Below are positions 10,512 to 25,635 of a DNA stretch of 43,213 nt, one piece after another (positions within the stretch are counted from its first letter, which is position 1; each line of letters opens with the position of its first letter). Under the pieces are notes generated by a model. That model made no database searches, had not been told where the DNA came from, and saw only the letters and a program-made list of their open reading frames with translations. Source of the stretch: an uncultured delta proteobacterium (lineage in GTDB: Bacteria > Desulfobacterota > WTBG01 > CAIYCZ01 > CAIRTM01); assembly GCA_903911225.1 (NCBI GenBank), contig CAIWCT010000136.1, positions 1-43,213 of the forward strand, given 5' to 3'. The translations under genes and the position numbers were made by a program.

Positions 10512-11048
10512 GAAAGCCCTCGCTGTTGTAGATTTGCAATAAGCATGTACTATAATTTAGTTGCCTGTGTTGTGAAAGCGTTTTTTGCATCCGTAGCGCC
10601 TGCCACTTTACGGCAGGGATAGATTGTAATCAGCTTATATAGTATCGGACAAAACGAGGCTTAAGTTAGGCCTTTTCTGCGGCCACATTCACCTTGACAC
10701 ACAATCGCTCCCATTTTATATTCAACCCATCCAGAATGAGTTTCCTACGCGCCAGGCAAAGTCTGCAGAATCCAGTTGCCTGAGACGTCAATCCGACAAA
10801 TCCGGCGGACCGTCAAAATCAAATTTTGCATAGATACTGTCGCGAAACCGGGAGGTGAACGGATACAAATAATTTCAATCTGCAGCATCGGGAGAAACCG
10901 ATGTGCTTGACCCAAAGCCAACTCGAATCATAGAAACATCTGTACGCCCTCGGCAGGTCTGCCAGGGCCGGCAATGAAAAGCAAAAAGAACTGCAAGAGA
11001 CGGTCGCGAAATGTGAAATGATGCACAGTTGCTGCATTGGGAGAAATA
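10512..11048. other. Divergent intergenic region with long leader and possible relic ORF
   Basis: This region separates the chemosensory operon from the polysaccharide locus. A good promoter points right (10694-10722). On the minus strand the only candidate for the receptor operon is a TATAGT box (10549-10554) without a convincing -35. The roughly 320-base leader ahead of wzm has no ops/JUMPstart motif that I can find. Its last part looks faintly coding. A GGGAG site precedes a 10-codon ORF (10901-10933, MCLTQSQLES). Past its stop the same frame continues KHLYALGRSARAGNEKQKEL up to wzm. This may be a decayed gene end or a leader peptide; I do not recognise it. Confidence 0.4.
10694..10722 (+). 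promoter_or_regulatory. Sigma-70-type promoter for the polysaccharide locus
   Basis: A consensus -35 box TTGACA (10694-10699) is followed after 17 bases by TATATT (10717-10722). Spacing and boxes are near ideal. It points towards wzm, whose start lies about 320 bases downstream, leaving a long 5' untranslated leader. No competing plus-strand gene start lies between them apart from a 10-codon ORF. Confidence 0.6.
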
Positions 11049-11843
11049 ATGGCGGGGTTTTTTAAAAATATTTGGTCGTATCGCGGTTTTATTTTAAGCA
11101 GCGTTAAACGCGAATTTCAATCGAAGTACCGGAACTCCATGTTGGGCGCTGCCTGGACGGTTATCAATCCGTTGGCCATGATTTTTGTTTATACCGTTAT
11201 TTTTTCTCAGGTTATGAAGACAAAGCTGCCTGGTACAAACAGCAGCTTTGCCTATAGTGTGTATCTGTGTTCGGGACTGCTGACATGGGGTTTTTTTGCA
11301 GAAATCGTGAACGGGCTGCAAACCGTATTTCTTGGAAATTCAAACCTGCTGAAAAAGCTCAGTTTCCCCCGGCTTTGTCTGCCGATTATTACCGTGCTGA
11401 ATGCGGTTCTGAATTTCAGCATTGTGTTCGGCTTGTTTACCATTTTTTTGATTATTTCCGGCGATTTTCCGGGCTGGAGCTATTGCGGGCTGCTGCCGGT
11501 CTTTATAATTCTGATTGCCTTCTCTGCCGGGCTTGGCATCACGCTTGGTGTGCTGAATGTGTTTTTCAGAGATGTAGGGCAGTTGTTCGGCGTTATCCTG
11601 CAGTTCTGGTTCTGGTTTACGCCAATTGTCTACCCCGTATCGATTCTACCGGATTTTGTCCGTCGTTGCCTGATTTTTAATCCCATGGTGGGCATTATTG
11701 CGGCATGCCAGAAAATTTTTCTTTTTCGGCAATGGCCGGACTGGGCTTCGCTTGCGCCCGTTGCGCTTCTGGCGGTTGCGCTGTGTTTTTTTAGCTGGCG
11801 TCTTTTCAGGAAACGCTCCGGCGAAATGGTGGATGAGCTTTGA
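11049..11843 (+). CDS. wzm: O-polysaccharide ABC transporter permease (Wzm family)
   Basis: A 264-residue ABC-2 type inner-membrane permease with six predicted membrane segments. It opens with the cytoplasmic amphipathic stretch SVKREFQSKYRNSMLG and the family block GAAWTVINPLAMIFVYTVIF, and later has VFFRDVGQLFGVILQFWFW. It pairs with Wzt to export lipid-linked polysaccharide across the inner membrane. I choose the ATG at 11049, with GGGAG 6 bases upstream, rather than the in-frame TTG at 11037. The stop overlaps the wzt start (TGATG). It is the first gene of the polysaccharide operon. Confidence 0.93.
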   Translation: MAGFFKNIWSYRGFILSSVKREFQSKYRNSMLGAAWTVINPLAMIFVYTVIFSQVMKTKLPGTNSSFAYSVYLCSGLLTWGFFAEIVNGLQTVFLGNSNLLKKLSFPRLCLPIITVLNAVLNFSIVFGLFTIFLIISGDFPGWSYCGLLPVFIILIAFSAGLGITLGVLNVFFRDVGQLFGVILQFWFWFTPIVYPVSILPDFVRRCLIFNPMVGIIAACQKIFLFRQWPDWASLAPVALLAVALCFFSWRLFRKRSGEMVDEL

Positions 11844-13108
11844 TGAGCACGATAACCGTCACCAATCTTGGCAAGGCCTACAAGCTCTACCCCGCCCGCT
11901 GGTCGCGGCTGGCGGAATGGCTGCTGCCCGGCCACAAGCCCCGCCACCAGCTCAAATGGGCGCTGCATGATATTACCTTCACCGTCAACCCCGGTGAGGC
12001 CGTGGGCATCATCGGGGTTAACGGCGCGGGCAAGAGCACCTTGCTCAAAATCATCACCGGCACCACCCAGCCCACCACCGGCAGTATGCACATTACCGGC
12101 CGCGTCGCCGCGCTGCTGGAACTGGGTATGGGCTTCCATCCCGATTTCACCGGCCGCCAGAACGTGCTTATGGCCGGGCAACTCCAGAATTTGACGCCTC
12201 ATCAGATTCGGGATGTCATGCCTGCCGTTGAAAATTTTGCCGCAATCGGTGATTACATTGACCAGCCTGTGCGGGTTTATTCAAGTGGCATGCAGATGCG
12301 GCTCGCATTTGCAGTGGCCACGGCAGTCAGGCCCGATATCCTGATAGTGGATGAAGCACTGGCGGTTGGCGACGCGGCTTTTCAAAGAAAGTGCTTTCAG
12401 CGGATTGAAACCTTTCGTGCGGAAGGCACGACACTGCTTTTTGTCAGTCATGATGTGGATACGGTGAAGCGCCTCTGCGGGAAAGCAGTGTTTCTTGATA
12501 AGGGGTTCATGAAAATGGAGGGTAAGGCCAAGGATGTTTGTGATGCCTATGAGAAGCACCTCTTTGGAGGACAGGCGAAAAGGCCTGTTTCTGTGGATAG
12601 TGAAGCGCCTAAAGGCCATATGGATTCATCTTTAAGCGCAGCATCCATCGAGAAGCAGTATGGCGACGGGGGAGCATGTATTGCTTCTGTGCAGATTGAA
12701 ATCGACTCTGGAGATATCGTGAATGTTATTCCTGAAGGAGTTAAATTTTATATCGCGTATACGGTTGCCTTTTCACGGAAGTGCCGCGGGGTATGCTTCG
12801 GCATGATGATTAAAACGGTGGAAGGCGTTCCCGTATATGGAACGAACACCACAGGCTGGGCCAATCAACAAGACTTTGATTGCGGGCAGATGACATCGGT
12901 GCGCTTCGCGCTTGAGGGCAATCTGGCGCCAGGCACGTACTATCTTAATGTTGGCGTTTACTGCGCCTCCAGCGAGGGACAGCTGTGCCTTCACCGGCGG
13001 ATCGACTGCCTGATTTTTTGCGTAAACGCGGTTCATAACCGGATCACGCTCGGTTCGGCAAATCTGTTTGCGACTCCTGATATCCAAACCGCCTTGCCGC
13101 AGCGATGA
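11843..13108 (+). CDS. wzt: O-polysaccharide ABC transporter ATPase with cargo-binding tail (Wzt family)
   Basis: A 421-residue protein. The ATPase domain (about 1-240) has Walker A GVNGAGKST at 58-66, signature YSSGMQMRLAFA, Walker B DILIVDEALAVGD and H-loop VSHD. A C-terminal beta-sandwich (about 270-415, with IPEGVKFYIAYTV and GNLAPGTYYLNVGVY) matches the Wzt carbohydrate-binding domain. In E. coli O8/O9a this domain recognises the modified non-reducing end of the finished chain, so its presence implies a capped polymer. The start is the ATG at 11843, overlapping the wzm stop. Confidence 0.93.
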   Translation: MSTITVTNLGKAYKLYPARWSRLAEWLLPGHKPRHQLKWALHDITFTVNPGEAVGIIGVNGAGKSTLLKIITGTTQPTTGSMHITGRVAALLELGMGFHPDFTGRQNVLMAGQLQNLTPHQIRDVMPAVENFAAIGDYIDQPVRVYSSGMQMRLAFAVATAVRPDILIVDEALAVGDAAFQRKCFQRIETFRAEGTTLLFVSHDVDTVKRLCGKAVFLDKGFMKMEGKAKDVCDAYEKHLFGGQAKRPVSVDSEAPKGHMDSSLSAASIEKQYGDGGACIASVQIEIDSGDIVNVIPEGVKFYIAYTVAFSRKCRGVCFGMMIKTVEGVPVYGTNTTGWANQQDFDCGQMTSVRFALEGNLAPGTYYLNVGVYCASSEGQLCLHRRIDCLIFCVNAVHNRITLGSANLFATPDIQTALPQR

Positions 13109-13126
13109 TCATGCGATGAGATACCG

Positions 13127-14815
13127 ATGAAACAGCCCGAACATAACGCTGCTCCCGTCTTCCTGCACATGCTGTTCCGCTCGGGCAGCACATATCTATT
13201 TAAGGTGTTTCGCCGATCAGACCATGGCTACTGGTGTTATCATGAGCCGGAGAATGAATTCCTGAAGCACTTAAACGGCGACTGCGAAAAGCTTCTTGAA
13301 ATGGGCAGCGATACCGGTCGTCATCTTCGGCACCCAATCCTCGACATACCTTATTTCTGGGAGTTTTACCAGATACGGGATATTCTTAAAGGATTGTTCC
13401 GAGAATCTTTCAGCTATGATGATTTTTTCGCCGATGTCGCTTCCGGGCTACCCGAAGACCAGCGCCGTTATTTCAGCGCGCTGATTTCCAGTGCGCGAGG
13501 CCGTCCGGTACTCCAGTTCTGCCGGAGCGCAGGGAGAATCGGAGCGCTCAAGCAGGCTTTTGGCGGCATGCATATCCACCTCTGGAGGGAACCCCGCAAT
13601 CAGTGGTGGTCGTTCAAGATTAATTATTATTTCGATCCGGCAGTGCAACTGATTTACAATGCCCGGGGTTTGCCGCCGGTTCTGGCGGAAGCCCGTCGCC
13701 GGTGCGGCATGATGGCGTTCCAAGCCGATGATTTTGAAAAGGAGTTCGAATATGCCCGGACGCATCCGTTGCAAACAATCTCCAACTATTTTGCATTTTA
13801 CGCACTCTGGCTTTATGCTTATTTGGAAGGTGAAAAGTATGCCGATATTACGATCAGTATTGACAGTCTGAGCGCTAATGAGCCGTACCGTGACACAACC
13901 CTCAAAATTTTTGCGCAATCCGGAATTGAAGGTCTCGATTTTTCCGATTGCTCCATACCGCGAGCGGTATTTACGAAAGACGAATGCGAATTTTTCGCCA
14001 AAATCGAACATCAGGTTCGAGACCTTTTCCTTATGTATGGCTGCAACGTACATAATCAGGAGGAGGCTGTCGCCGCTCATGAAGGTGTTTTAAAACTGCA
14101 TGATGTTTTGCAGGCTGATCCGCTTCGCGAAGCGGCGCGCGCCAGGCAAATGACACTTCGCTATCTTGATCTTTATGGGCAGGCCGAAGCCCGCTCCCAG
14201 TGGTTGGAAAACGAATGGAATGTCGCTTGTGCCCGTAATGAAGCTCTGTCTGAACAGTTGCGGGCTGCCGAAGCTGGAAGCACCTGCATCAAGGGAGATC
14301 TGCAGGCGCAGCGGCAATTGATGACAGAGGCCGAAGCCCGGTCCCTGTGGCTGGAAAGCGAGTGGAATGCCGCCAGTGCACGCAATGAAGCCATGGCTGA
14401 ACAGTTAAGGGCTGTTGAAGGCGAAAGCAGCCGCATCAAGGGAGAGCTGCAGGCGCAGCGGCTATCCCTGACAGAGGCCGAAGCAAAAGCCCACGAGATT
14501 TTTTTAACGCTGCACAGCCTCTGCATCAGCCGCTCCTGGCGCATTACAGCACCACTGCGCTGGTGTGGACATCAGGCGCGCCTGATGCGCCGGCAGGGAT
14601 TGGCGATGCGTTTAAAAGCTCTCGTAAAAAAAATCGACCGGCTCGAGGTAATATGCGGCGCTGCTTTAATGTCCGGGTGCAGCGCGGAGGATTCTTCGCA
14701 ATCATTGTCTGGCCGCTGCCCCACCCCTGCGGTAGCCCAATTGTCTCCACGGGCTCGCCGGATCTACGCCGATCTGAAAGCGGCAATTGAACACCGCAGA
14801 AAGGAAGTTCTCTGA
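13127..14815 (+). CDS. Sulfotransferase-coiled-coil protein, candidate O-polysaccharide chain terminator
   Basis: A 562-residue protein. The N-terminal part (about 1-310) looks like a PAPS-dependent sulfotransferase: RSGSTYL at 18-24 fits the 5'-phosphosulfate loop and REPRNQWWS at 154-162 fits the 3'-phosphate site. Residues 353-450 are two near-identical 49-residue repeats rich in Glu, Ala and Arg, predicted to be coiled coil. A basic segment follows (about 468-510, SRSWRITAPLRW and RRQGLAMRLKALVKKI) that could bind membrane. Its position between wzt and a multi-domain glycosyltransferase is that of WbdD in E. coli O8/O9a, which caps the chain and measures its length with a coiled coil. The family assignment of the N-terminus is fairly good; the capping role is inference. 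Confidence 0.7.
   Translation: MKQPEHNAAPVFLHMLFRSGSTYLFKVFRRSDHGYWCYHEPENEFLKHLNGDCEKLLEMGSDTGRHLRHPILDIPYFWEFYQIRDILKGLFRESFSYDDFFADVASGLPEDQRRYFSALISSARGRPVLQFCRSAGRIGALKQAFGGMHIHLWREPRNQWWSFKINYYFDPAVQLIYNARGLPPVLAEARRRCGMMAFQADDFEKEFEYARTHPLQTISNYFAFYALWLYAYLEGEKYADITISIDSLSANEPYRDTTLKIFAQSGIEGLDFSDCSIPRAVFTKDECEFFAKIEHQVRDLFLMYGCNVHNQEEAVAAHEGVLKLHDVLQADPLREAARARQMTLRYLDLYGQAEARSQWLENEWNVACARNEALSEQLRAAEAGSTCIKGDLQAQRQLMTEAEARSLWLESEWNAASARNEAMAEQLRAVEGESSRIKGELQAQRLSLTEAEAKAHEIFLTLHSLCISRSWRITAPLRWCGHQARLMRRQGLAMRLKALVKKIDRLEVICGAALMSGCSAEDSSQSLSGRCPTPAVAQLSPRARRIYADLKAAIEHRRKEVL
14183..14476 (+). repeat. Two tandem 147-bp repeats inside the sulfotransferase gene
   Basis: Copy 1 spans 14183-14329 and copy 2 spans 14330-14476, each exactly 49 codons. 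Both start with codons for AEARS and contain WLE.EWN, ARNEA, EQLRA and IKG.LQAQR. A third copy begins (AEAKAHE) at 14477 and then diverges. The exact in-frame unit means copy number could change without breaking the gene. Confidence 0.9.
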
Positions 14816-17800
14816 TGCGCCTGGTTATAGACATGCAGGGCGCGCAATCCATTGAAAGCCGCAATCGTGGAATTGGCCGTTACAGTTTGGCTTTGAGCAG
14901 GGAAATGGCGCGTTTGCGTTGTGAGCACAATGTTGTTTTTGCCCTTAACGGTTTGTTTTCTGAGACTATCGAGCCCATTCGTGCAGCTTTTGCAGGGCTG
15001 GTGCCGGAAGAAAACATTTGTGTCTGGGAAGCAGCCGCCCCGGTCAATGCTCTTGATCCATCCAACGATGCCCGCCGCCAGGTGGCGGAAATATCTCGTG
15101 AGGCTTTTCTCGCAAGCCTGCGGCCGGATGTGGTTTTAAATACTTCCATTTTTGAAGGGCTTGAAGGTGGCGCGGTAACGAGCATCGGGTGTTTTACAAC
15201 TCAACTGCCAACGGTGGTTGTTCTCTATGATCTTATTCCCCTGATTTACCGCAGCCTTTATTTGCAAAATCCGGTGGTCGAGCGCTGGTACTTGAATAAG
15301 CTCGACCATTTGAGGCGAGCCGATTTGCTGCTTTCGATCTCCTCATCATCAAGACAGGAGGCTGTTGATTATCTGAATTTTCCGGCGGAGAAAGTGGTCA
15401 ACATATCTACAGCCTGTGACAGCCGTTTTCAGCCGGCTGTGGTGGATAAATCCGGACATGCGCAGTTGCAAATGAATTATGGTCTTGTTCGGCCGTTCGT
15501 AATGTATACGGGAGGCATTGATCATCGCAAGAATATCGAGGGGCTCATCCGCGCCTACGCCGGCATGCCCCGGCACATACGGGTAGCGCATCAGCTGGCG
15601 GTGGTGTGCTCGATAAAGGAGCCCGACCGGAAGCTATTGCTGCGATTGGCTCACAAAGAGGGGCTTGGAGACGATGAACTGGTTATCACCGGCTTTGTTT
15701 CCGATAATGATTTGCTTATGCTTTGTAACGCCTGCAAATTGTTTGTTTTCCCTTCGTGGCACGAAGGCTTTGGTTTGCCGGCCCTGGAGGCGATGGCTTG
15801 TGGCCGCGCTGTGATTGGTTCGAACAAATCAAGCATTCCCGAGGTGATCGGGCGTGAGGACGCATTGTTCGACCCATTGGATGACCGGGCTATTACACGC
15901 AAGATGGTTGACGTGCTGACAAATGAAGATTTTCGCGCCGAACTGGCTCAATATGGATTAGAACGGGCAAAAAGTTTTTCCTGGGAGCGCACTGCGCGCC
16001 GCGCCTGGCAGGCGCTGGAAGCGTTCGTCGCTCAGCGGTCGCAGTCCTTACCTGTACTGTCCGTGATGACGCAGCGTCCCCGCCTCGCCTATATTTCTCC
16101 GCTGCCGCCGGAACAAAGCGGCATTGCCGACTACAGCGCTGCATTATTGCCGGAACTCGCGCGGCACTACGAAGTTGAGGTTATTGTTTCCCAAAGCAAG
16201 GTGTCGGACCCCTGGGTGCGTGCCAATTGTCCGATGCGCGATGTCAACTGGTTTCGCGCCAATGCGCGCCGCTTTGATCGGGTGCTGTATCACTTCGGGA
16301 ATTCGCCCTTTCACAGCCACATGTTTGACCTTCTGGGCGAATTGCCTGGCGTTGTGGTGCTGCATGATTTTTTTCTTGCGCACGCTGTCGGGCATGTGCC
16401 TTTTCCTGGAGCCATACCGACCAGAGGGGATCTCGCGTTTGTTCACTCCCACGGCTGGTCTGCGTTGCACGCGCGCTATGCGGCAAAGGATGTCGACGAG
16501 GCGGTTTGGGCCTATCCCTGCAATCTTGAGGTTTTACAGAATGCTCTGGGGGTTATCGTCCACTCGGACTATTCCTGCAGCCTGGCAAGACAGTGGTATG
16601 GCTCTCATGCTGCAGATGCCTGGTCACAAATCCCCCTCGTGCGAGCGACTGCTGTTGATGCCGGTCGACCTGCGCTGCGGCAGGCCCTTGGAATCGGAGA
16701 AAAAGATTTTATCGTTTGCAGTTTTGGGCTTTTGGGGGCGACAAAGCTCAATCACCGCCTGCTGGCTGCATGGCTAGCCTCACCGCTGGCGGGTGATCCC
16801 CGGTGCCGCCTGATTTTTGTTGGCCGCAATCCTGGCGGCGATTATGCCGATCAGCTGGCCGGCAGCATGCATGGCAGCGCCTCTCGCAGCCTCATAGAGA
16901 TTACCGGCTGGGCGGATGCGGCAGCCTACCGTGCATGGCTTGCCGCTGCCGATATCGGCGTGCAGCTGCGCACCAGGTCTCGCGGCGAGACTTCGGCCGC
17001 AGTTTTGGACTGCATGAATCACGGCCTGGCGACCATCGTCAATGCTCACGGCTCGACAGCTGATGTGCCGACTGATGCTGTATGGATGCTGCCTGACGAG
17101 TTTTCCGAAGATCAACTAATTGAAGCGCTGACGGCCTTGTGGCGTGATGATGGGCAACGGCAAACACTTGGCCGCCGCGCCAGAGAGGTGATTTACATGC
17201 ATCACCAGCCGCGACAGTGCGCCGACCAATATGCCCAAGCAATCGAAAACCATTACCAAAAGGCGATGTTCGGCTTACCTGCCGTTATCGATGCCATTGC
17301 AAACGTCGAGCCACCATTGCAGCCGGACGATTGGCCGCGCGTTTCATCGGCACTGGCTAACAACTTTCCGCCGCGTCCTCGTCGCAAGCAGTTGTTTCTG
17401 GATGTTTCCATCCTCGCCCAGAATGATGCAAAAAGCGGCATCCAGCGAGTCGTTCGCGCGCTTCTGCGCGAATTGCTGCTTAACCCGCCCGACGGATGGG
17501 CGGTTGAGCCGGTGTATGCCGCCGCCGATACTCCGGGTTACCGCTATGCCCACCTCTTTACCAGCCGTTTTTTGGATATTAATAACGTCTGCGCCGAAGA
17601 CAAGCCCGTAGACACCTGGCCGGGTGATGTTTTCGTAGGTTTGGATTTACAGCATGTTGTTGTGCCTTTGCAGAAAGACTATCTGCTTGCCTGGCATCGT
17701 CGTGGCACCAAGATTTTTTTTATTGTTTACGACCTCTTGCCCATTTTGTTCCCGCATTTTTTTCAGGAAGCTACCCGGATGATGCATGAACGCTGGCTTG

Positions 17801-18561
17801 AGACCATTAGCCATTTCGATGGGGCGGTTTGCATTTCACGCGCCGTGGCAGACGAACTGCATGCGTGGATAAAAAACTTCGGCACCAAACGCGAGCGACG
17901 ATTGGGGCTCAGCTGGTTTCATCTCGGGGCAAATGTCGAAAACACCGTACCCACAACGGGAATGCCCAATGGCGCAAATCAAACGCTCAATGCAATAAAG
18001 GAACTGCCTTCATTCCTGGCAGTCGGAACCGTCGAGCCACGTAAAGGCTATACTCAAATACTTGCGGCATTCGAACAGCTTTGGAGTGAAGGTGTTGACG
18101 CCAACCTGATCATAGTCGGAAACCAGGGCTGGAAGATGGAGGCACTGGCTGAAAAGCTCAGCGCTCATCGTGAGCGTGGCAAGCATCTGTTCTGGCTCGA
18201 AGGCATCAGCGACGAGTATCTTGAAAAAATCTACGCAGCCAGTACGTGCCTGATTGCCGCCTCGGAAGGCGAAGGCTTTGGTTTGCCGCTGATTGAAGCC
18301 GCTCATCATCGGCTGCCAATTATTGCGCGAGATATTCCCGTATTCCGCGAGGTCGCAGGCGACCATGCGTTTTACTTTAAGGGTCTTGAGCCGCAAGCGC
18401 TCAGGGATGCTGTTCGCCAATGGCTTGAGCTTGATAAGCAGGGCAAAGCCCCCCAGTCCGACAACATGCCCCGGCAAACCTGGAAGCAGAGCGCCGAACA
18501 ATTGTTGAAAATAGTTTTGGGTGGTCAGGGGCAGTCCGCCGCGGGTGGTGCATGCACATAA
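14815..18561 (+). CDS. Triple-domain GT4-type glycosyltransferase, WbdA-like polymerase
   Basis: A 1248-residue cytoplasmic enzyme made of three GT-B glycosyltransferase modules. Module 1 (about 1-410) has the GT4 EX7E motif at Glu317/Glu325 (EGFGLPALE). Module 2 (about 425-815) starts RLAYISPLPPEQSGIADYS but has a degenerate motif (RGETSAAVLD, Glu725). Module 3 (about 855-1240) has EX7E at Glu1153/Glu1161 (EGFGLPLIE). E. coli O8 WbdA is likewise a three-domain polymerase that builds the repeat unit of an ABC-exported O-antigen. By analogy this enzyme would polymerise the chain. It overlaps the upstream stop (TGATG), supporting coupled production with the sulfotransferase. Sugar donor and linkages are not predictable from sequence alone; a mannose- or rhamnose-type donor is suggested by the nearby RMD-like gene. 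Confidence 0.88.
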   Translation: MRLVIDMQGAQSIESRNRGIGRYSLALSREMARLRCEHNVVFALNGLFSETIEPIRAAFAGLVPEENICVWEAAAPVNALDPSNDARRQVAEISREAFLASLRPDVVLNTSIFEGLEGGAVTSIGCFTTQLPTVVVLYDLIPLIYRSLYLQNPVVERWYLNKLDHLRRADLLLSISSSSRQEAVDYLNFPAEKVVNISTACDSRFQPAVVDKSGHAQLQMNYGLVRPFVMYTGGIDHRKNIEGLIRAYAGMPRHIRVAHQLAVVCSIKEPDRKLLLRLAHKEGLGDDELVITGFVSDNDLLMLCNACKLFVFPSWHEGFGLPALEAMACGRAVIGSNKSSIPEVIGREDALFDPLDDRAITRKMVDVLTNEDFRAELAQYGLERAKSFSWERTARRAWQALEAFVAQRSQSLPVLSVMTQRPRLAYISPLPPEQSGIADYSAALLPELARHYEVEVIVSQSKVSDPWVRANCPMRDVNWFRANARRFDRVLYHFGNSPFHSHMFDLLGELPGVVVLHDFFLAHAVGHVPFPGAIPTRGDLAFVHSHGWSALHARYAAKDVDEAVWAYPCNLEVLQNALGVIVHSDYSCSLARQWYGSHAADAWSQIPLVRATAVDAGRPALRQALGIGEKDFIVCSFGLLGATKLNHRLLAAWLASPLAGDPRCRLIFVGRNPGGDYADQLAGSMHGSASRSLIEITGWADAAAYRAWLAAADIGVQLRTRSRGETSAAVLDCMNHGLATIVNAHGSTADVPTDAVWMLPDEFSEDQLIEALTALWRDDGQRQTLGRRAREVIYMHHQPRQCADQYAQAIENHYQKAMFGLPAVIDAIANVEPPLQPDDWPRVSSALANNFPPRPRRKQLFLDVSILAQNDAKSGIQRVVRALLRELLLNPPDGWAVEPVYAAADTPGYRYAHLFTSRFLDINNVCAEDKPVDTWPGDVFVGLDLQHVVVPLQKDYLLAWHRRGTKIFFIVYDLLPILFPHFFQEATRMMHERWLETISHFDGAVCISRAVADELHAWIKNFGTKRERRLGLSWFHLGANVENTVPTTGMPNGANQTLNAIKELPSFLAVGTVEPRKGYTQILAAFEQLWSEGVDANLIIVGNQGWKMEALAEKLSAHRERGKHLFWLEGISDEYLEKIYAASTCLIAASEGEGFGLPLIEAAHHRLPIIARDIPVFREVAGDHAFYFKGLEPQALRDAVRQWLELDKQGKAPQSDNMPRQTWKQSAEQLLKIVLGGQGQSAAGGACT

Positions 18562-20441
18562 TTAAGGCGCCTGAAATGACATCATGCAAGCGGCTGGCGG
18601 TATGGGCCATTGACTTTGCGCTTTTTATTTCCCTGGCGCTGCTGACTGCCAATCGCTTTTCTCCTGAGTTTTTGAACGCGGATGTTATTTTAAATTCAGT
18701 GATATCGCTGCAGCATGTTACGCCGTTTTGCTGGGGTCAAAATCGCATGGCAAACATACTGCCCCTGGCGGCTTCTCCGATTAGAGATCCATCGCTCAAT
18801 CTCTACGCCTGTCTTGTGATTGTGACCATTGTTTTTTACGGGTTGATATGGTTCTGGGCTGATCGTTTGTCCAAAACAGGTTTTACGGATAAACAACACC
18901 GCCTGGTCAGAAGAGAGATTTTTCTTGTTCTGGCCAGCATTTTTTTCTTTATTGCACAACCCAGCACTGTCTTTGAAATTGCAATCTTTCATATCGAATA
19001 TACCCTGTCGTACCTCCTGCTGGGCGTTGCGTTTTTTTGCTTCTTCGACCAAAAAAAACCGCTTTTCATGCGGTTTGCAGTAACAGGGGCCTGCTTTGCC
19101 GTCGCCACTGGAATAAACTACAGCATAGTAATCCCTGCACTGTGCCTTACAGGGGGGCGCGCGCTCTTCAGGAGAAAGCTGGATAACGATTCCCTTGCCT
19201 TCGGTGTTTGCGCGGTGGTTTTATTGATTGCATGGGGATTGATAGCCCGCTTTTATCCAGACCCCGGCATATCGTATGTGCGCTTCGACTTTGAGCGACT
19301 GAATGATTCTGTTCAGATTGTCGCTAAGAATCTAATTGATGCTTTCTGTGTTGGCAATTTTATTGCATTAGCGCTTGCAGCTTGTTTGTTGAAAATCCTC
19401 GCCTTTAGAATGCCACAGCAGATTGCGTTGTCAGATTATAATCGTACAGGCTTATTTACGATACTATTGCTTGTATTCGCAGGAGCGTGGACACTCATTT
19501 TTTCAGTCAACTCGTGGGTGACTGCAAATTTATTCAACTTTAGATACTTTATTCCGGTGATATTTGTTGCAATGATACTCCTGTCTCTTGAAGTCAGAAA
19601 TCTCGCAGTTTTATTCAATTGGTGGCAGCACGCTGCTGTATCGATTGTGCTGGCTTTCGGGTTGATTATTTATTTGGCGCAACCGTTTGTACCTTTGCGT
19701 GACTACAGGGTGTTCAAAAGCGTTAACAGCGTCTTTCCGGACGATGTTGCAGGCTACGCAGGCAACTACTGGTATGTTTGGCCTGCGGTAATGAAAAATT
19801 TACTTGAGGGGAAGGATGGTTTCGGTTTTACCTGTCGTGGGGAAGGCAACCGGGGTAATCTGACGCGATATTTTTCGAAAGTTGCACAACGACGTGGAAA
19901 CCTGACCTTTGGGTGTCTAGAGGAGCCGATTGATGAGTGCCATTTTCAAATAAAAAGTTTCTTTGGGAATGCCAGTCCGGGTGATGCTGAGTTGGTTCAG
20001 GATGGTATTTGGCTGTTGCCAGTCTATTTTATGAACGGGCCTTTAGGAAAGTCCGACTTTGCTTTAGCGTTATCGGCGGAGGAGATCCCAAACCAGTGGC
20101 AAAAAAACGAATTGAGAAAATGTTCCCTGCGGGTCAAAAATAATGGAAATATTATCCTGTCCAGCGCAGGCAGTGATTTGAACTGTCCTGCTAAATATGC
20201 TATCCACTTGTCTTACCGGTGGGTAGAGGCTGACAGCTCAGCGCCGCTGTCCGGGTTTGATACGCGAACCGCTCTGCCTGTGGCGGTTAAACCAAAAGCT
20301 GAAATAATAATGAACATGGAGATTAAAGCTCCATCAAGGCCTGGAAAATACCGGCTGGAGATTGAGGCAGTGCAGGAACTGGTCGCCTGGTTTAAAGACA
20401 AAGGATGCCCGGGGCTGCGCATTGCGGTGGAGGTGCGGTGA
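18552..20441 (+). CDS. Polytopic membrane protein with C-terminal Ig-like beta domain
   Basis: A 629-residue protein with roughly ten predicted membrane segments in the first 390 residues (for example FLVLASIFFFIAQP, AVVLLIAWGLIARF and VSIVLAFGLIIYLAQP). A soluble region follows. The last ~110 residues contain YAIHLSYRWV, TRTALPVAVKPKAEI and PGKYRLEIEAVQELVAWF, a beta-sandwich-like module I associate with polysaccharide-locus glycosyltransferases and methyltransferases. The topology fits a GT-C glycosyltransferase or another envelope polysaccharide-modifying enzyme; I cannot see a decisive catalytic motif. The ATG at 18552 overlaps the preceding gene by 10 bp; an internal ATG at 18576 is an alternative start. 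From here onward the sequence becomes more AT-rich. Confidence 0.65.
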   Translation: MHIIKAPEMTSCKRLAVWAIDFALFISLALLTANRFSPEFLNADVILNSVISLQHVTPFCWGQNRMANILPLAASPIRDPSLNLYACLVIVTIVFYGLIWFWADRLSKTGFTDKQHRLVRREIFLVLASIFFFIAQPSTVFEIAIFHIEYTLSYLLLGVAFFCFFDQKKPLFMRFAVTGACFAVATGINYSIVIPALCLTGGRALFRRKLDNDSLAFGVCAVVLLIAWGLIARFYPDPGISYVRFDFERLNDSVQIVAKNLIDAFCVGNFIALALAACLLKILAFRMPQQIALSDYNRTGLFTILLLVFAGAWTLIFSVNSWVTANLFNFRYFIPVIFVAMILLSLEVRNLAVLFNWWQHAAVSIVLAFGLIIYLAQPFVPLRDYRVFKSVNSVFPDDVAGYAGNYWYVWPAVMKNLLEGKDGFGFTCRGEGNRGNLTRYFSKVAQRRGNLTFGCLEEPIDECHFQIKSFFGNASPGDAELVQDGIWLLPVYFMNGPLGKSDFALALSAEEIPNQWQKNELRKCSLRVKNNGNIILSSAGSDLNCPAKYAIHLSYRWVEADSSAPLSGFDTRTALPVAVKPKAEIIMNMEIKAPSRPGKYRLEIEAVQELVAWFKDKGCPGLRIAVEVR

Positions 20442-20578: not shown

Positions 20579-21538
20579 ATGAAGAAGTTTTTAATTACCG
20601 GGGTTTCCGGTTTTGTCGGACAGTATTTTATTGATTATCTGGAAACAAACAGGATAAAGGCCCATGTTCTGGGCGTTGATTTGGCTGAACATAAATCCAG
20701 CCGGGCTTGCAGCTGTGTGACTCAGAGTTTTAAGCGGATCGATTTGCTGTGCGGGCATGAAATTGAGCGCATGCTGTTTGAGTTTCAGCCGGATTATGTG
20801 CTGCATCTGGCTTCTTACAGCAGTGTTGCTTTTAGCTGGAAGGAGCCGGTGCTGAGCTTCCAGAACAATATGAATGTTTTTTTGAATCTTGTTGAGACGA
20901 TCCGCAGACTGGGGCTTAAACCCCGGATGCTTTCCGTGGGCTCTTCCGAAGCCTACGGAAACATCAATCAAGAGCATCTTCCTCTGGTCGAAGAGGCTCC
21001 ACTTGACCCGGTAAGTCCGTATGCGGTGGCGCGGGTTTCCCAGGAGCTTTTATCCAAAGTGTATGCTGAGGCCTACGGCGTTGATTTGATTATAACCCGT
21101 TCTTTTAACCATATCGGGCCAGGGCAGAAGGATATTTTTGTAATTTCATCTTTTGCAAAACAGATCGCCGAAATCAAAAAGCTTGGATATGGGAAGGGCG
21201 TGCTGTCGACGGGAGATTTACGGATTGTGCGGGATTTTCTGGATGTGAGGGATGTTGTGCGGGCTTATTATCTGCTGCTGACGCAGGGGAAGAAGGGCCG
21301 GATTTACAATGTCTGTTCCGGCAAAGGGCATGCCTTGCAGGAGGTGGTTGATGAGCTGGCTTGCATTGCCGGAGTTGAAATCACAACAAAGCTGAATCCG
21401 GCGTTTGTCCGCCCGTCTGATAACCGGGGGATCATCGGATCGTACCAGAGGATGTATGATGAGTTGGGATGGAGGCCGGGAATTTCTTTTCAGCAAAGTT
21501 TAAAGGAAATTTTGCAATATTGGGAGGATCTGGTCTAG
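20579..21538 (+). CDS. NAD(P)-dependent GDP-sugar reductase/epimerase, RMD-like
   Basis: A 319-residue extended short-chain dehydrogenase. The Rossmann fold has GVSGFVG at 8-14, a conserved SVGSSEAYG block and, downstream of the active site, RSFNHIGPGQ and VRDFLDVRDVVRAY. These blocks match GDP-6-deoxy-4-keto-mannose reductases (RMD), which make GDP-D-rhamnose, and more loosely other nucleotide-sugar epimerases. The catalytic motif reads YAVAR (Tyr148, Arg152) where YxxxK is expected. No GDP-mannose 4,6-dehydratase lies in the window to supply its substrate. A strong ribosome-binding site (AAGGAG) precedes the ATG. The 137-bp gap before it holds nothing I recognise. Confidence 0.75.
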   Translation: MKKFLITGVSGFVGQYFIDYLETNRIKAHVLGVDLAEHKSSRACSCVTQSFKRIDLLCGHEIERMLFEFQPDYVLHLASYSSVAFSWKEPVLSFQNNMNVFLNLVETIRRLGLKPRMLSVGSSEAYGNINQEHLPLVEEAPLDPVSPYAVARVSQELLSKVYAEAYGVDLIITRSFNHIGPGQKDIFVISSFAKQIAEIKKLGYGKGVLSTGDLRIVRDFLDVRDVVRAYYLLLTQGKKGRIYNVCSGKGHALQEVVDELACIAGVEITTKLNPAFVRPSDNRGIIGSYQRMYDELGWRPGISFQQSLKEILQYWEDLV

Positions 21539-21648
21539 CCCTGGTTCAATGGTTAAGAGGAAAAAATCAAACAAAGCATTGTGCGAAGCTCGTTCCTGAC
21601 TTGTCCTGAAAAATTCTTAACTTGCCAGCCCACGTATTGGATCGTTTT

Positions 21649-22821
21649 ATGAAAAAAGAGAAGAGCGAAAACAAGTGCAGGCTGGTCGTTAATGCGACCC
21701 CGCTGCTGGAAAATTTAACCGGTGTAGGGCAGCTTGCTCGAGAGGTATCAAGATGCCTGGTTTGCATGCCCGGCTTTGAGGTCGATTTTTTTACGACGCT
21801 GAAAACCTTTTCAACCCTACAGGCTTTGGAAAACAGCCGCTTTCATGCCCGCATCTTGAAGCTTGCCAAGGGGGCTTTTCAGCAAATCCCTTATAAGGCC
21901 GCACTTCGAAAGCAGTACTTAAAAACAGACAAAGCAGGCCCCTCTTACAATCTTTACTGGGAGCCAAATTTCATTCCTGCCGATTCAATTTGTGCGCAGC
22001 GGATTGTAACGACCGTGTGTGATATGTCCGTGTTTGAGCATCCGGAGTGGCACCCTGCCGACCGTGTTTCTTTTTTTAAAAAGAATTTTTTTAAAAAAAT
22101 CAGTTGCTCCGATATCGTAACAACTATTTCCCGCTTCAGCAAAGAGCGGTTTCTGGAATTGCAGCATGAAGTACGGGAGGATCGCGTCAAGGTAATACAT
22201 TGCGGAGTTAATCATGAGGTTTTTCGGGTTTTGAATTCCGAAGATGTTGCGGCCTTTAGAAAGAGATATCGGCTACCGGAAAATTTTGCTCTATTTGTAG
22301 GAACCTTAGAGCCCCGCAAGAATCTTCTTTATCTGCTGACTGCCTATGAGAGGTTGCCGGCGGATTATCGGAAAACCTGCCCACTGGTGCTGGCAGGCGA
22401 TGAAGGTTGGGGGAATAAGGAAATTCTGAAACGGATAGATAAATTGGGGCGGCATGTTAAACGTTTTGGATATATTAAAAGTCAGACTGACTTGGCCCTG
22501 ATGTATAATGCCGCCTCTGTGTTTGTTTTCCCTTCTCTCTATGAGGGTTTCGGCATTCCTCCGTTGGAAGCAATGGCATGCGGTACTCCTGTTTGTCTAA
22601 GCTCGATTCCTGTTTTCCATGAGGTCTACGGCGATAATGCTGCTTTTTACATTGATCCGTTTGATCCCGACTCGCTATCCAGTGCTTTGTTGCGCATTTT
22701 GGAAGACTCAGAATATCGCGAGAGCCTTGTGCAGCGAGGGTTCGATCTTTCCCGAAAATATACATGGGAGGCAACCTCTGAGGGATATGCCTCTGTCTTC
22801 AAACAGATCATTGCAGGATAG
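21649..22821 (+). CDS. GT4 family glycosyltransferase
   Basis: A 390-residue GT-B glycosyltransferase, WbpX/WbpY-like in general layout. The N-terminal domain has the acceptor-side loop TPLLENLTGVGQLAREV. The donor-binding half has FALFVGTLEPRKN and FVFPSLYEGFGIPPLEAMAC, which includes the EX7E dyad. It probably adds a mannose- or rhamnose-type sugar in the same pathway. I prefer the ATG at 21649, with GGA upstream, over an in-frame TTG at 21622. It lies 110 bp after the epimerase gene in the same direction. Confidence 0.85.
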   Translation: MKKEKSENKCRLVVNATPLLENLTGVGQLAREVSRCLVCMPGFEVDFFTTLKTFSTLQALENSRFHARILKLAKGAFQQIPYKAALRKQYLKTDKAGPSYNLYWEPNFIPADSICAQRIVTTVCDMSVFEHPEWHPADRVSFFKKNFFKKISCSDIVTTISRFSKERFLELQHEVREDRVKVIHCGVNHEVFRVLNSEDVAAFRKRYRLPENFALFVGTLEPRKNLLYLLTAYERLPADYRKTCPLVLAGDEGWGNKEILKRIDKLGRHVKRFGYIKSQTDLALMYNAASVFVFPSLYEGFGIPPLEAMACGTPVCLSSIPVFHEVYGDNAAFYIDPFDPDSLSSALLRILEDSEYRESLVQRGFDLSRKYTWEATSEGYASVFKQIIAG

Positions 22822-23025: not shown

Positions 23026-24438
23026 ATGTTATTTGATTCGCCTTTGTTTCTTTTTATTTTTTTACCCGTATGTTTTTTGCTTTATTTTGTTGTCGGCAAA
23101 AACTACAAGAATCCAACTTTGCTGGTTATGAGCTTATTGTTTTATGCTTGGGGAGAGCCCCGGTTTATTTTTATTGTTTGTGTATCCTGCCTGCTTGATT
23201 TGATTTTAGGGAAAATGATTTATGTATCGGAGAATAGTTTTAAAAAACGGGTTGCGCTTACACTGGGTGTTTTATCAAACATAGGGGGGCTCGTATACTT
23301 TAAGTATGCAAATTTTATTCTAAGCAACGTCAATCATTTATTATCGGATATGCATCTTAATCCCATTATATTTACATCCATTGTCTTGCCCCTTGGAGTA
23401 TCCTTTATTGTGTTTGGGAAAATCAGTTATCTCGTTGATATCTATCGGGGCGTTAGCTCTCCGGCGCAAAAAGCCACTTCGTATTTTACCTATGTTTTTT
23501 TGTTTCCCAAATTACTTGCTGGACCGATCATAAAATACCATGAAATAGAAGGACAAATACGGGAAAGAACTTGCAGCCTCGACGATATTTCGCTTGGCGT
23601 ATGCCGTTTCTCCTGGGGCTTGGCAAAAAAGGTGTTTATCGCCGATACCTTGGGGCCCTTCGTGGAGCTTATTTTTAAACTTCCCGCAAACGAACTCGAT
23701 TTTTTTAATTCCTGGTTCGGCGTAATCTGTTTTTCCGTGCAAATCTACTTCGACTTTTCCGCTTATTCCGATATGGCAATCGGACTTGCAAGAATCATGG
23801 GATTCCGTATCGCTGAAAATTTTAATATGCCCTATATTTCTTCAAATTTTACGGAGCTTTGGGGGAGATGGCACATCTCCCTATCCTCGTGGATAAGGGA
23901 CTATCTCTATATTCCTTTAGGGGGAAGCCGCTGTTCAAAGCCGAGGATGTATTTAAATTTATGGATTTGTTTTCTCTTGTGTGGTTTATGGCATGGTGCG
24001 AACTGGAATTTTATGCTTTGGGGAGCTTATAACGGCATTTTTCTTGTAGCTGAAAAAATGTTTATTTTACGGATCCAGAAAAAGCTCCCGCGGATATGTA
24101 ATGTCGCAACAACCTTCCTTCTGATTACGATAGGTTTGGTAATATTCCGTTCCGGCAGTATTGAGACCATGAGTTGCTACCTTACGGCAATGTTCAATCC
24201 GGACGTATTGTACGGGAAATTTATATTTGTAACCAATGACGCCAGATTTTTTCTGGCATTAGGATTATTCCTTATCTTCTTTCCGCTTACCAATATCTGC
24301 TGGAAACTTCAGGGTTTGTATCTTATGGTTTCTGCTAATCGAAAACTGGAAATTATCGCAGCTGCTATTGTATTACTCCTGTCGGTATTCAGAATTTCGA
24401 CGTCCACATTTAACCCTTTTCTGTATTTCAGGTTCTGA
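23026..24438 (+). CDS. MBOAT family O-acyltransferase, AlgI-like
   Basis: A 470-residue polytopic membrane enzyme. Typical MBOAT blocks are present: PLFLFIFLPVCFLLYF at the N-terminus, FPKLLAGPI, FSVQIYFDFSAYSDMAIG, WGRWHISLSSWIRDYLYIPL and the catalytic His in LWHGANWNFMLWG. Enzymes of this type take acetyl groups from the cytoplasm and pass them across the inner membrane for O-acetylation of exported polysaccharide. The following gene encodes the usual periplasmic partner. Base composition is clearly more AT-rich than in the genes before 18500, which suggests a different origin for this pair. Confidence 0.93.
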   Translation: MLFDSPLFLFIFLPVCFLLYFVVGKNYKNPTLLVMSLLFYAWGEPRFIFIVCVSCLLDLILGKMIYVSENSFKKRVALTLGVLSNIGGLVYFKYANFILSNVNHLLSDMHLNPIIFTSIVLPLGVSFIVFGKISYLVDIYRGVSSPAQKATSYFTYVFLFPKLLAGPIIKYHEIEGQIRERTCSLDDISLGVCRFSWGLAKKVFIADTLGPFVELIFKLPANELDFFNSWFGVICFSVQIYFDFSAYSDMAIGLARIMGFRIAENFNMPYISSNFTELWGRWHISLSSWIRDYLYIPLGGSRCSKPRMYLNLWICFLLCGLWHGANWNFMLWGAYNGIFLVAEKMFILRIQKKLPRICNVATTFLLITIGLVIFRSGSIETMSCYLTAMFNPDVLYGKFIFVTNDARFFLALGLFLIFFPLTNICWKLQGLYLMVSANRKLEIIAAAIVLLLSVFRISTSTFNPFLYFRF

Positions 24439-24462
24439 TGTTCCATTGCGGGAGCGCATTTA

Positions 24463-25635
24463 ATGATTAAGCGAATACAAAAAACGATGCTCGGCCTAAT
24501 TATCGCTTTAATTATCGCCCCTTGTTTTTTTTACTTCCTGCATAAGATAGCGCCTGTTAAAATGTTTACCTATTCCGATCTTGCGGGTATCACCATTTCG
24601 GAAAAGAGGCCGCAGCTTACAATCGATTCCTGGATGAGCGGACAATATCAGATACAATTCACCCGTTGGTTTAGTCAGCGTTTTGGTCTAAGAGAGATAT
24701 TTGTACGTTTAAATAATCAAATCTTTTACAGTCTATTTGATAAATCGTACATGTACGATCAAAAAATTATTGTTGGAAAAAAAAAGCAGCTTTACGAACG
24801 GGCATATATCGATGATTATACAAAACATATCTTTCCCATGACGCCTGCTCAGATGAACAGTTTGGTTGAACAAATAGCCGAGATCCAAAATTTATTTAAA
24901 AAACACGGGGTTGCTTTTCTGGTTTTAATTACTCCGAGCAAAGCATACACGTATCCTGAATATATACCTGATTCTTTTTTTTATAACCCGATCAGCCAGC
25001 AAAGAAATTATGATCTCATCCTTCCTTTATTGGAGCACTATAAGGTCAATTATATCGACGGCCAGAAAATAACCCTGCAGGCAAAAAGTACAGAGATATA
25101 TCCTTTGTTCTGCCAAGGAGGTATACATTGGAATTATTTATGCGCCTATTACACAATAGCTAAATTAATAACTACCATAGAGGCCCTTACTGAAAAAGAT
25201 CTTCCCCATATTCAATGCAGCAAAGTGCAGGTTGACACTAATCCAACAGGCAGTGATAAAGATCTAGCGACGCTGCTTAATTTAGCGATTCCTCCCACTT
25301 GCTATATCTCGCCGCATCCAGTTTTCACAGCCATGGAAAGCAGGGGGGGCAATAAAAATAATCTCGTTTTTGTTGGCGGCAGCTTTATATTTGTTATGGC
25401 CGATATTTTATGGGTGAATAAAATATTTAATCAAATTGACTTCTACTGTTATTACAAAACAAATCATTTTGTTTATCCTGAAAATAAAGAAGCCAGCCTT
25501 TATGATGCAAACAACATTAATTGGAATACGGAGTTTTTAAACAAAGATGCCGTTGTTTTGGAAATAAATGTAGTAAACTTTAATGGAAACCACATCAAAG
25601 GATTTGTTAAAGACGCCTTAAGCAGTTTGCGGTAA
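24463..25635 (+). CDS. AlgJ/AlgX-like SGNH-fold O-acetyltransferase partner
   Basis: A 390-residue protein with one N-terminal membrane anchor (about 9-27, LGLIIALIIAPCFFYFL), placing the rest in the periplasm. It has the family blocks VAFLVLITPSKAYTYPEYIP, GGIHWN (His222) and a nucleophile-like NLVFVGGSF (Ser307). It should act with the MBOAT protein just upstream (24-bp gap) to place acetyl groups on the polysaccharide. The catalytic DxH pair of AlgX/AlgJ reads GxH here (Gly220), so the Asp is missing or supplied elsewhere. The gene ends the polysaccharide cluster and converges on the amidohydrolase gene. Confidence 0.8.
   Translation: MIKRIQKTMLGLIIALIIAPCFFYFLHKIAPVKMFTYSDLAGITISEKRPQLTIDSWMSGQYQIQFTRWFSQRFGLREIFVRLNNQIFYSLFDKSYMYDQKIIVGKKKQLYERAYIDDYTKHIFPMTPAQMNSLVEQIAEIQNLFKKHGVAFLVLITPSKAYTYPEYIPDSFFYNPISQQRNYDLILPLLEHYKVNYIDGQKITLQAKSTEIYPLFCQGGIHWNYLCAYYTIAKLITTIEALTEKDLPHIQCSKVQVDTNPTGSDKDLATLLNLAIPPTCYISPHPVFTAMESRGGNKNNLVFVGGSFIFVMADILWVNKIFNQIDFYCYYKTNHFVYPENKEASLYDANNINWNTEFLNKDAVVLEINVVNFNGNHIKGFVKDALSSLR

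Follow-up and report, generated by a model that had tools for sequence, protein, structure and literature searches.

The protein encoded by the ORF at 13127–14815 (hereafter the focal protein) of the window, that is, the whole 43,213-nt stretch of DNA analysed here, is predicted to cap the chains of an ABC-exported polysaccharide with sulfate and to act as a ruler of their length. Taken together, sequence comparison, structure modelling and analogy with known systems make this combined role probable, and of the readings considered, a sulfate cap has the best support. The main new result, and the strongest evidence for the terminator reading, is a head swap recognized by homology: because the same slot, C-terminal module and polymerase are also found with methyltransferase (MT) heads, a sulfotransferase (ST) appears to have taken the place of the capping head in a chassis of the WbdD type, which comprises the rod, the predicted membrane helix, the putative polymerase-docking peptide and the GT4 polymerase.

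In Escherichia coli O9a, the WbdD head caps the chain end and its coiled coil sets chain length, the C-terminal region of WbdD recruits WbdA, and the carbohydrate-binding module (CBM) of Wzt reads the cap (PMC3482155, PMC11231755, PMC10629545). A sequence-only reading of the window had described the order wzm, wzt with a cargo-binding tail, a sulfotransferase–coiled-coil protein and a triple glycosyltransferase, and had assigned the third gene to the WbdD position. The ORFs and Pfam matches confirmed this order, and the focal gene indeed lies between a wzt carrying a Wzt_C domain and a gene for a three-module GT4 polymerase (Table 1). It starts 18 nt after the end of wzt, and its stop overlaps the polymerase start at 14815. 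The PDB chain nearest to full-length Wzt is 8dku (3.5e-68). The focal protein resembles WbdD of E. coli O8/O9a and Klebsiella pneumoniae O3/O5 in its position after wzt and before the gene for a polymerase of several modules, in its exporter ATPase with a CBM, and in its layout of a catalytic head followed by a coiled-coil rod. At the C-terminus, where WbdD has a membrane helix and a region that recruits the polymerase, the focal protein has a predicted membrane-contact helix and a putative docking peptide. It differs in the head, which is a methyltransferase with or without a kinase in WbdD and of the sulfotransferase type here. Searches of Pfam and NCBIfam detected no methyltransferase or kinase domain in the focal protein, implying that it may work like WbdD but is not a WbdD.

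Table 1. Coordinates of predicted genes, domains and motifs in the window
Feature	Position	Strand	Evidence or remark
wzm, ABC-2 type exporter membrane subunit	11037..11843	+	PF01061 1.6e-22
wzt, exporter ATPase with C-terminal carbohydrate-binding (Wzt_C) domain	11840..13108	+	PF00005 3.4e-23; PF14524 2e-23, residues 272-405
Wzt_C tail, predicted chain-end reader, with basic position R386	12653..13054	+	
ST-headed terminator/ruler (predicted), 562 aa, ATG start	13127..14815	+	ORF, family and model evidence
Sulfotransferase-type head, residues 1-307	13127..14047	+	Family alignment; AF2 pLDDT 93.3, pTM 0.91
5'-PSB (P-loop) H14-M-L-F-R-S-G-S-T22	13166..13192	+	R18, S21 in 46/46; G20, T22 in 45/46
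E40, proposed catalytic base	13244..13246	+	Invariant, 46/46
3'-phosphate-binding motif, residues 150-162, R154 and S162	13574..13612	+	Invariant, 46/46
Rod, one predicted helix, residues 331-466 (136 residues, ~20 nm)	14117..14524	+	AF2 full-length model
147-nt tandem duplication (49 aa, 7 heptads), 82% identical	14181..14474	+	
SRSWRITAPLR motif with basic amphipathic helix 468-503 (predicted to contact the membrane)	14528..14635	+	AF2 model; motif also present in the MT-headed proteins of this slot
C-terminal peptide LSPRARRIYADLK... (helix 541-561), predicted to dock on the polymerase	14741..14812	+	
Three-module GT4 polymerase, predicted partner of the focal protein	14815..18561	+	PF00534, three Glycos_transf_1 stretches
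629-aa protein, same operon	18552..20441	+	No Pfam or NCBIfam match
Nucleotide-sugar dehydratase/epimerase	20579..21538	+	PF16363 2.4e-58
GT4 glycosyltransferase	21622..22821	+	PF00534 8.4e-35
MBOAT O-acyltransferase and AlgX-like partner	23026..25635	+	PF03062 9.3e-29, PF16822 3.1e-9

Loci comparable to that of the focal gene were sought by homology to the first GT module of the polymerase, and were obtained from 11 of 345 genomes. In three of these loci (L108, L120 and L124) a protein with a class I methyltransferase head stands between wzt(CBM) and the polymerase, and in two others (L121 and L123) an FkbM-headed protein stands between wzt(CBM) and the homologous polymerase. At L122 (4287–5584, minus strand), where the stretch examined contains no wzt, the FkbM head is encoded by one ORF and the coil and C-terminal module by another that overlaps it, so this terminator may be frameshifted or misassembled. 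Upstream wzm-wzt(CBM) was found in five of the six MT-headed loci. The polymerases of the MT-headed loci are 51–58% identical to the product of 14815–18561 over its first module, and the modules of the latter are 49–53% identical to those of L108. The sulfotransferase head occupies the same slot in the window, in L016 and in L015 joined to L127, the last of which continues the contig-cut rod of L015 and then encodes a GT4 polymerase.

The ST- and MT-headed proteins have in common the coil, the motif SxSW[RK]xT and the motif LSxRAxxIYxxLK, exact or in variant form. An HMM of the C-terminal region, built from ST-headed proteins only, was searched against 1,950 ORFs. The result showed matches to the MT-headed proteins of L120 (1.6e-30), L122 (5.6e-23), L108 (2.9e-21), L121 (4.2e-20), L124 (3.4e-19) and L123 (2.8e-17). 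Thus the class I MT and FkbM proteins are like the focal protein in C-terminal module, GT4 polymerase and slot, and differ from it in head chemistry. At L041 (11707–12987), a head-less coil/SWR/DUF4214 protein ending LPARARTVYFQLK... lies between an ST-rod protein and the GT4 polymerase; judged by its sequence, it is a split version of the chassis, a separate module as expected for the docking part.

The head carries PAPS-type motifs, RSGST at 18–22 and R154-x-P-x5-S162. Alignment of 46 heads with 27–47% identity showed that R18, S21, E40, H69, R133, R154, Q159 and S162 are invariant. The sulfotransferase-like motifs noticed in the sequence-only reading are therefore not due to chance, as the residues of both the P-loop and the 3′-phosphate motif are kept across this range of divergence. 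E40 lies about 20 residues past the P-loop, which we take to be the position of the catalytic glutamate in TPST. In the AF2 model of the head, the P-loop follows strand 11–14, and strand 148–153 followed by helix 156–163 is found at R154/S162, an arrangement that presumably corresponds to the sulfotransferase topology.

As a single query, the focal protein fitted none of the curated families and gave no sulfotransferase match in Pfam, NCBIfam, PHROG or PDB, and the Sulfotransfer_3 profile gave no match over its own genome. With tblastn, relatives were identified on plasmids of Ensifer adhaerens (35%) and Methylocystis iwaonis (28%), each with a coiled coil after the head. A profile built from these two and the focal protein led to seven other genomes in the phylum; it detected L019 and L020 with E values of 5e-24 and 1e-22, and these two stand-alone proteins score above the Pfam Sulfotransfer_3 cut-off (6e-11 and 4e-10; L017 at 5.8e-5). 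A scan of 84,980 species genomes yielded 51 loci of the head family. Sulfotransfer_3 (PF13469) was matched by 25 of the 46 aligned heads, and every other family by at most one. By transitive homology via these relatives, the head is classified as a divergent PAPS-sulfotransferase-type domain. It is like Sulfotransfer_3 proteins and tyrosylprotein sulfotransferases in its P-loop, its 3′-phosphate motif and the glutamate after the P-loop, and sulfotransferases give its best, though weak, fold matches; unlike Sulfotransfer_3 proteins, the focal protein falls below all cut-offs and has a rod and a docking module. No relatives of the focal protein were detected in the phages and viral contigs searched, hence there is no sign of a phage gene. 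Two actinomycete (Cellulomonadaceae) members of the head family, L053 and L054, are located at contig ends.

Structure prediction had been proposed as a check on the sulfotransferase assignment, and its outcome was mixed: the model is confident (pLDDT 93) and its best PDB matches are sulfotransferases, but the match is weak. Foldseek ranked TPST and Schistosoma sulfotransferases first (probability up to 0.99, weak at E ~5e-3 and TM 0.26–0.45) and placed some shikimate and dCoA kinases at lower ranks. A PDB search with a 10-row profile returned sulfotransferases only (4/4, weak, E 0.23–0.46), and a search with the 46-row profile, which is less diverse, returned only chance matches to a coiled-coil protein. 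In hhalign comparisons of the head with four ordinary sulfotransferases, the P-loop alone was aligned, at 23% probability. Given the fold E value and a TM below 0.5, the fold call rests mainly on the sequence relatives. The weak fold scores and the kinases lower in the Foldseek list, together with the fact that PAPS use by the head is deduced from sequence comparison, would also suit a P-loop transferase of sulfotransferase fold with another donor or acceptor, such as a kinase-like or sugar-nucleotide-dependent cap. This is very unlikely in view of the conserved P-loop without a Walker-A lysine (RSGST, not GKS/T), the invariance of the R154/S162 3′-phosphate motif, the similarity to Sulfotransfer_3 members and the PAPS-synthesis genes beside four family loci.

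These genes, cysDNC and/or cysC, are present in the neighbourhood DNA of L002, L024, L042 and L063, that is, at 4 of 56 loci, where a rough random model predicts about 0.5 (rough P 0.001). No PAPS-synthesis genes adjoin the focal gene; cysD, the start of cysN and cysC are present in its genome. At L103 (6076–7370), an unrelated rod-less sulfotransferase (PF13469), followed by an APS kinase, is located directly after wzt; the Wzt tail of L103 is placed near the tail clade of the focal locus, with weak support for the placement.

The repeat-built coiled coil and the basic C-terminus described in the sequence-only reading were both recovered, the former as a 49-aa seven-heptad duplication within one long predicted rod whose length varies between loci, and the latter as the basic helix 468–503. 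Since a home-made coiled-coil scorer also flags 13% of the head residues, the coil assignment is based on the heptad repeat and on the helix in the AF2 model. The full-length AF2 model shows a break at the SRSWRITAPLR motif (468) and a disordered stretch between the basic helix and the helix 541–561. Among 26 members, the distance from the head to the SWR motif is 78–311 residues, or about 12–46 nm, with a median of 20 nm (the value of 78 comes from the contig-cut L015 protein). Unequal crossing-over in the 147-nt duplication would be expected to alter rod length while keeping the register.

The gene order was expected to recur in other genomes, and this was borne out across phyla. The relatives show the order wzm-wzt(CBM)-ST-rod, usually with a GT4 polymerase next. 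In 24 distinct loci, among them those of cultured Marinobacter, Vreelandella, Acidovorax, Nitrosomonas and Pseudomonas, the gene immediately upstream of the head gene encodes Wzt+CBM, and two partial matches (L071, L072) likewise come after a wzt. Of the 13 rod-less relatives that are intact, none is adjacent to Wzt+CBM, and the association between rod presence and Wzt+CBM adjacency gave a Fisher value of 3e-4 with one contig-cut case counted against it, which serves as a guide only, the sequences being related. The expectation that the head would be confined to wzm/wzt loci held in part: homologues outside such loci exist, and the stand-alone ones are without a coil, but some coil-bearing ones lie beside CBM-less ATPases. 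About one-third of the rod-bearing members have no Wzt+CBM in the neighbourhood DNA examined, some of them standing beside NBD-only transporters, so reading of the cap by Wzt cannot be universal. The CBM-less ATPases, of 217–220 aa, were observed beside rod-bearing sulfotransferases at L028 (1058–1714), L031 (7927–8589) and L041 (7800–8453).

The rod-less relatives L018–L020 lie in polysaccharide clusters with no ABC exporter in the neighbourhood DNA examined. They would have a natural role if the head sulfated internal residues of many repeat units, the rod only tethering it to the polymerase and chain length being set otherwise, and many bacterial polysaccharide sulfotransferases do decorate in this way. 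For the rod-bearing proteins such decoration is nevertheless improbable, because the rod and C-terminal module are common to MT-headed proteins in a known terminator slot, a decorator has no need of rods as long and variable as 12–46 nm, and rod presence coincides with Wzt+CBM adjacency.

In the mechanism proposed for sulfate capping, the C-terminal peptide and the amphipathic helix would hold the protein at the membrane beside the GT4 polymerase, as homology to the MT-headed proteins suggests, and the rod of about 20 nm would keep the head off the membrane. A growing chain that is long enough would reach the head, which would use PAPS to sulfate the sugar at the non-reducing end, with E40 as the proposed base. 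As the terminal sugar would then be sulfated, no further sugar would be added; the capped end would be bound by the Wzt tail, in keeping with its Wzt_C domain, and the chain would be exported.

The tails of 58 Wzt proteins were compared on a tree. The result showed that linkage to the ST head requires three changes, compared with 19.6 after shuffling (0 of 500 shuffles as low), and that the ST-linked tails fall into one clade of 23 and another of 5. Each of the 26 ST-linked tails compared is basic at position 386 (21 with R, 5 with K); this position is W in the four MT-linked tails nearest the second clade and R in the three MT-linked tails nearest the first clade, to which the focal tail type belongs. 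N295 is invariant in the 21 tails of the focal type and absent from the methyl-linked tails compared, and R386-R387-D389 also occurs in three methyl-linked tails. No clean sulfate signature was found among the ST- and methyl-linked tails compared. At L015 (7708–9396; G262:C46), a PF03567-type sulfotransferase is fused to its own Wzt_C domain and lies between wzt and the rod protein; from its domains, it is a candidate for a cap enzyme or a reader with its own CBM.

The clustering of the tails, the basic position 386 and the sulfotransferase–Wzt_C fusion of G262 suggest that the Wzt tail reads sulfate, a proposal that we regard as plausible but somewhat short of probable. The sulfate cap and ruler may also be real while the tail recognizes the sugar or another feature, the clustering then reflecting only that wzt and the head gene are inherited together. 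This has an appreciable, minority chance of being correct: tails cluster by linkage and not necessarily by function, R386 is shared with the MT-linked tails nearest the first clade, and some rod-bearing loci are without any CBM; against it, two separate Wzt_C lineages are basic at 386, with W in the nearest MT-linked relatives of the second, and the G262 sulfotransferase carries a Wzt_C domain of its own. If the tail does read sulfate, the data could tentatively be extended to a machine with interchangeable heads, in which class I MT, FkbM and sulfotransferase heads can all be mounted on one chassis and a change of head goes along with a change of Wzt reader. At least two Wzt lineages would then have adopted sulfate as an additional kind of export cap, and a basic residue at CBM position 386, where the closest methyl-linked tails of one lineage carry tryptophan, would help to set specificity.

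The K. pneumoniae terminators O4 ORF7 (GT137 Kdo), O12 WbbB (GT99 Kdo) and O7 ORF6 (MT-kinase) are likewise coiled-coil proteins, with Kdo or methylphosphate as the cap (PMC11231755). The chain ends given in papers of 2023 and 2024 are methyl, methylphosphate and Kdo, with pyruvate as a candidate, and no word beginning with 'sulf' occurs in these papers (PMC10629545, PMC11231755). The literature searched, whose scope did not extend to the 2019 Glycobiology terminator survey by Mann, Kimber and Whitfield, contained no report of a sulfate terminator; priority is uncertain. For a sulfotransferase with a terminator, Wzt or a coiled coil, only ORF19 of the Aeromonas salmonicida wbsalmo cluster was found, a 216-aa protein with a sulfotransferase domain, encoded directly after wzt with WbbB next and left unexplained by its authors (PMC4483657). 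Compared by its description only, ORF19 is too short for the rod-bearing form. No sulfate was seen in the A. salmonicida O-antigen (PMC4483657), on which a single terminal group could be missed.

If sulfate capping is true, sulfate joins methyl, methylphosphate and Kdo ends in capping, length control and export selection, every chain tip carries a fixed negative charge, and the length of a surface glycan is tied to PAPS supply. Locus pairs with the same chassis and a methyl or a sulfate head would also provide natural material for studying head–reader matching. Since the family occurs in cultured environmental strains, with members in Marinobacter bryozoorum, Vreelandella utahensis, Acidovorax delafieldii and Nitrosomonas eutropha, a direct test of such matching is practical.

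Further along the window, visual comparison suggests a resemblance between the C-terminal regions of the 629-aa protein and of the L015 sulfotransferase–CBM protein, and the MBOAT/AlgX-like pair is assigned to a separate decoration of the glycan. The same genome contains a second Wzt_C locus (L128; G000:C266:1-9000), followed by FkbM, another methyltransferase and an asparagine-synthase-like gene, which probably serves another exported glycan.
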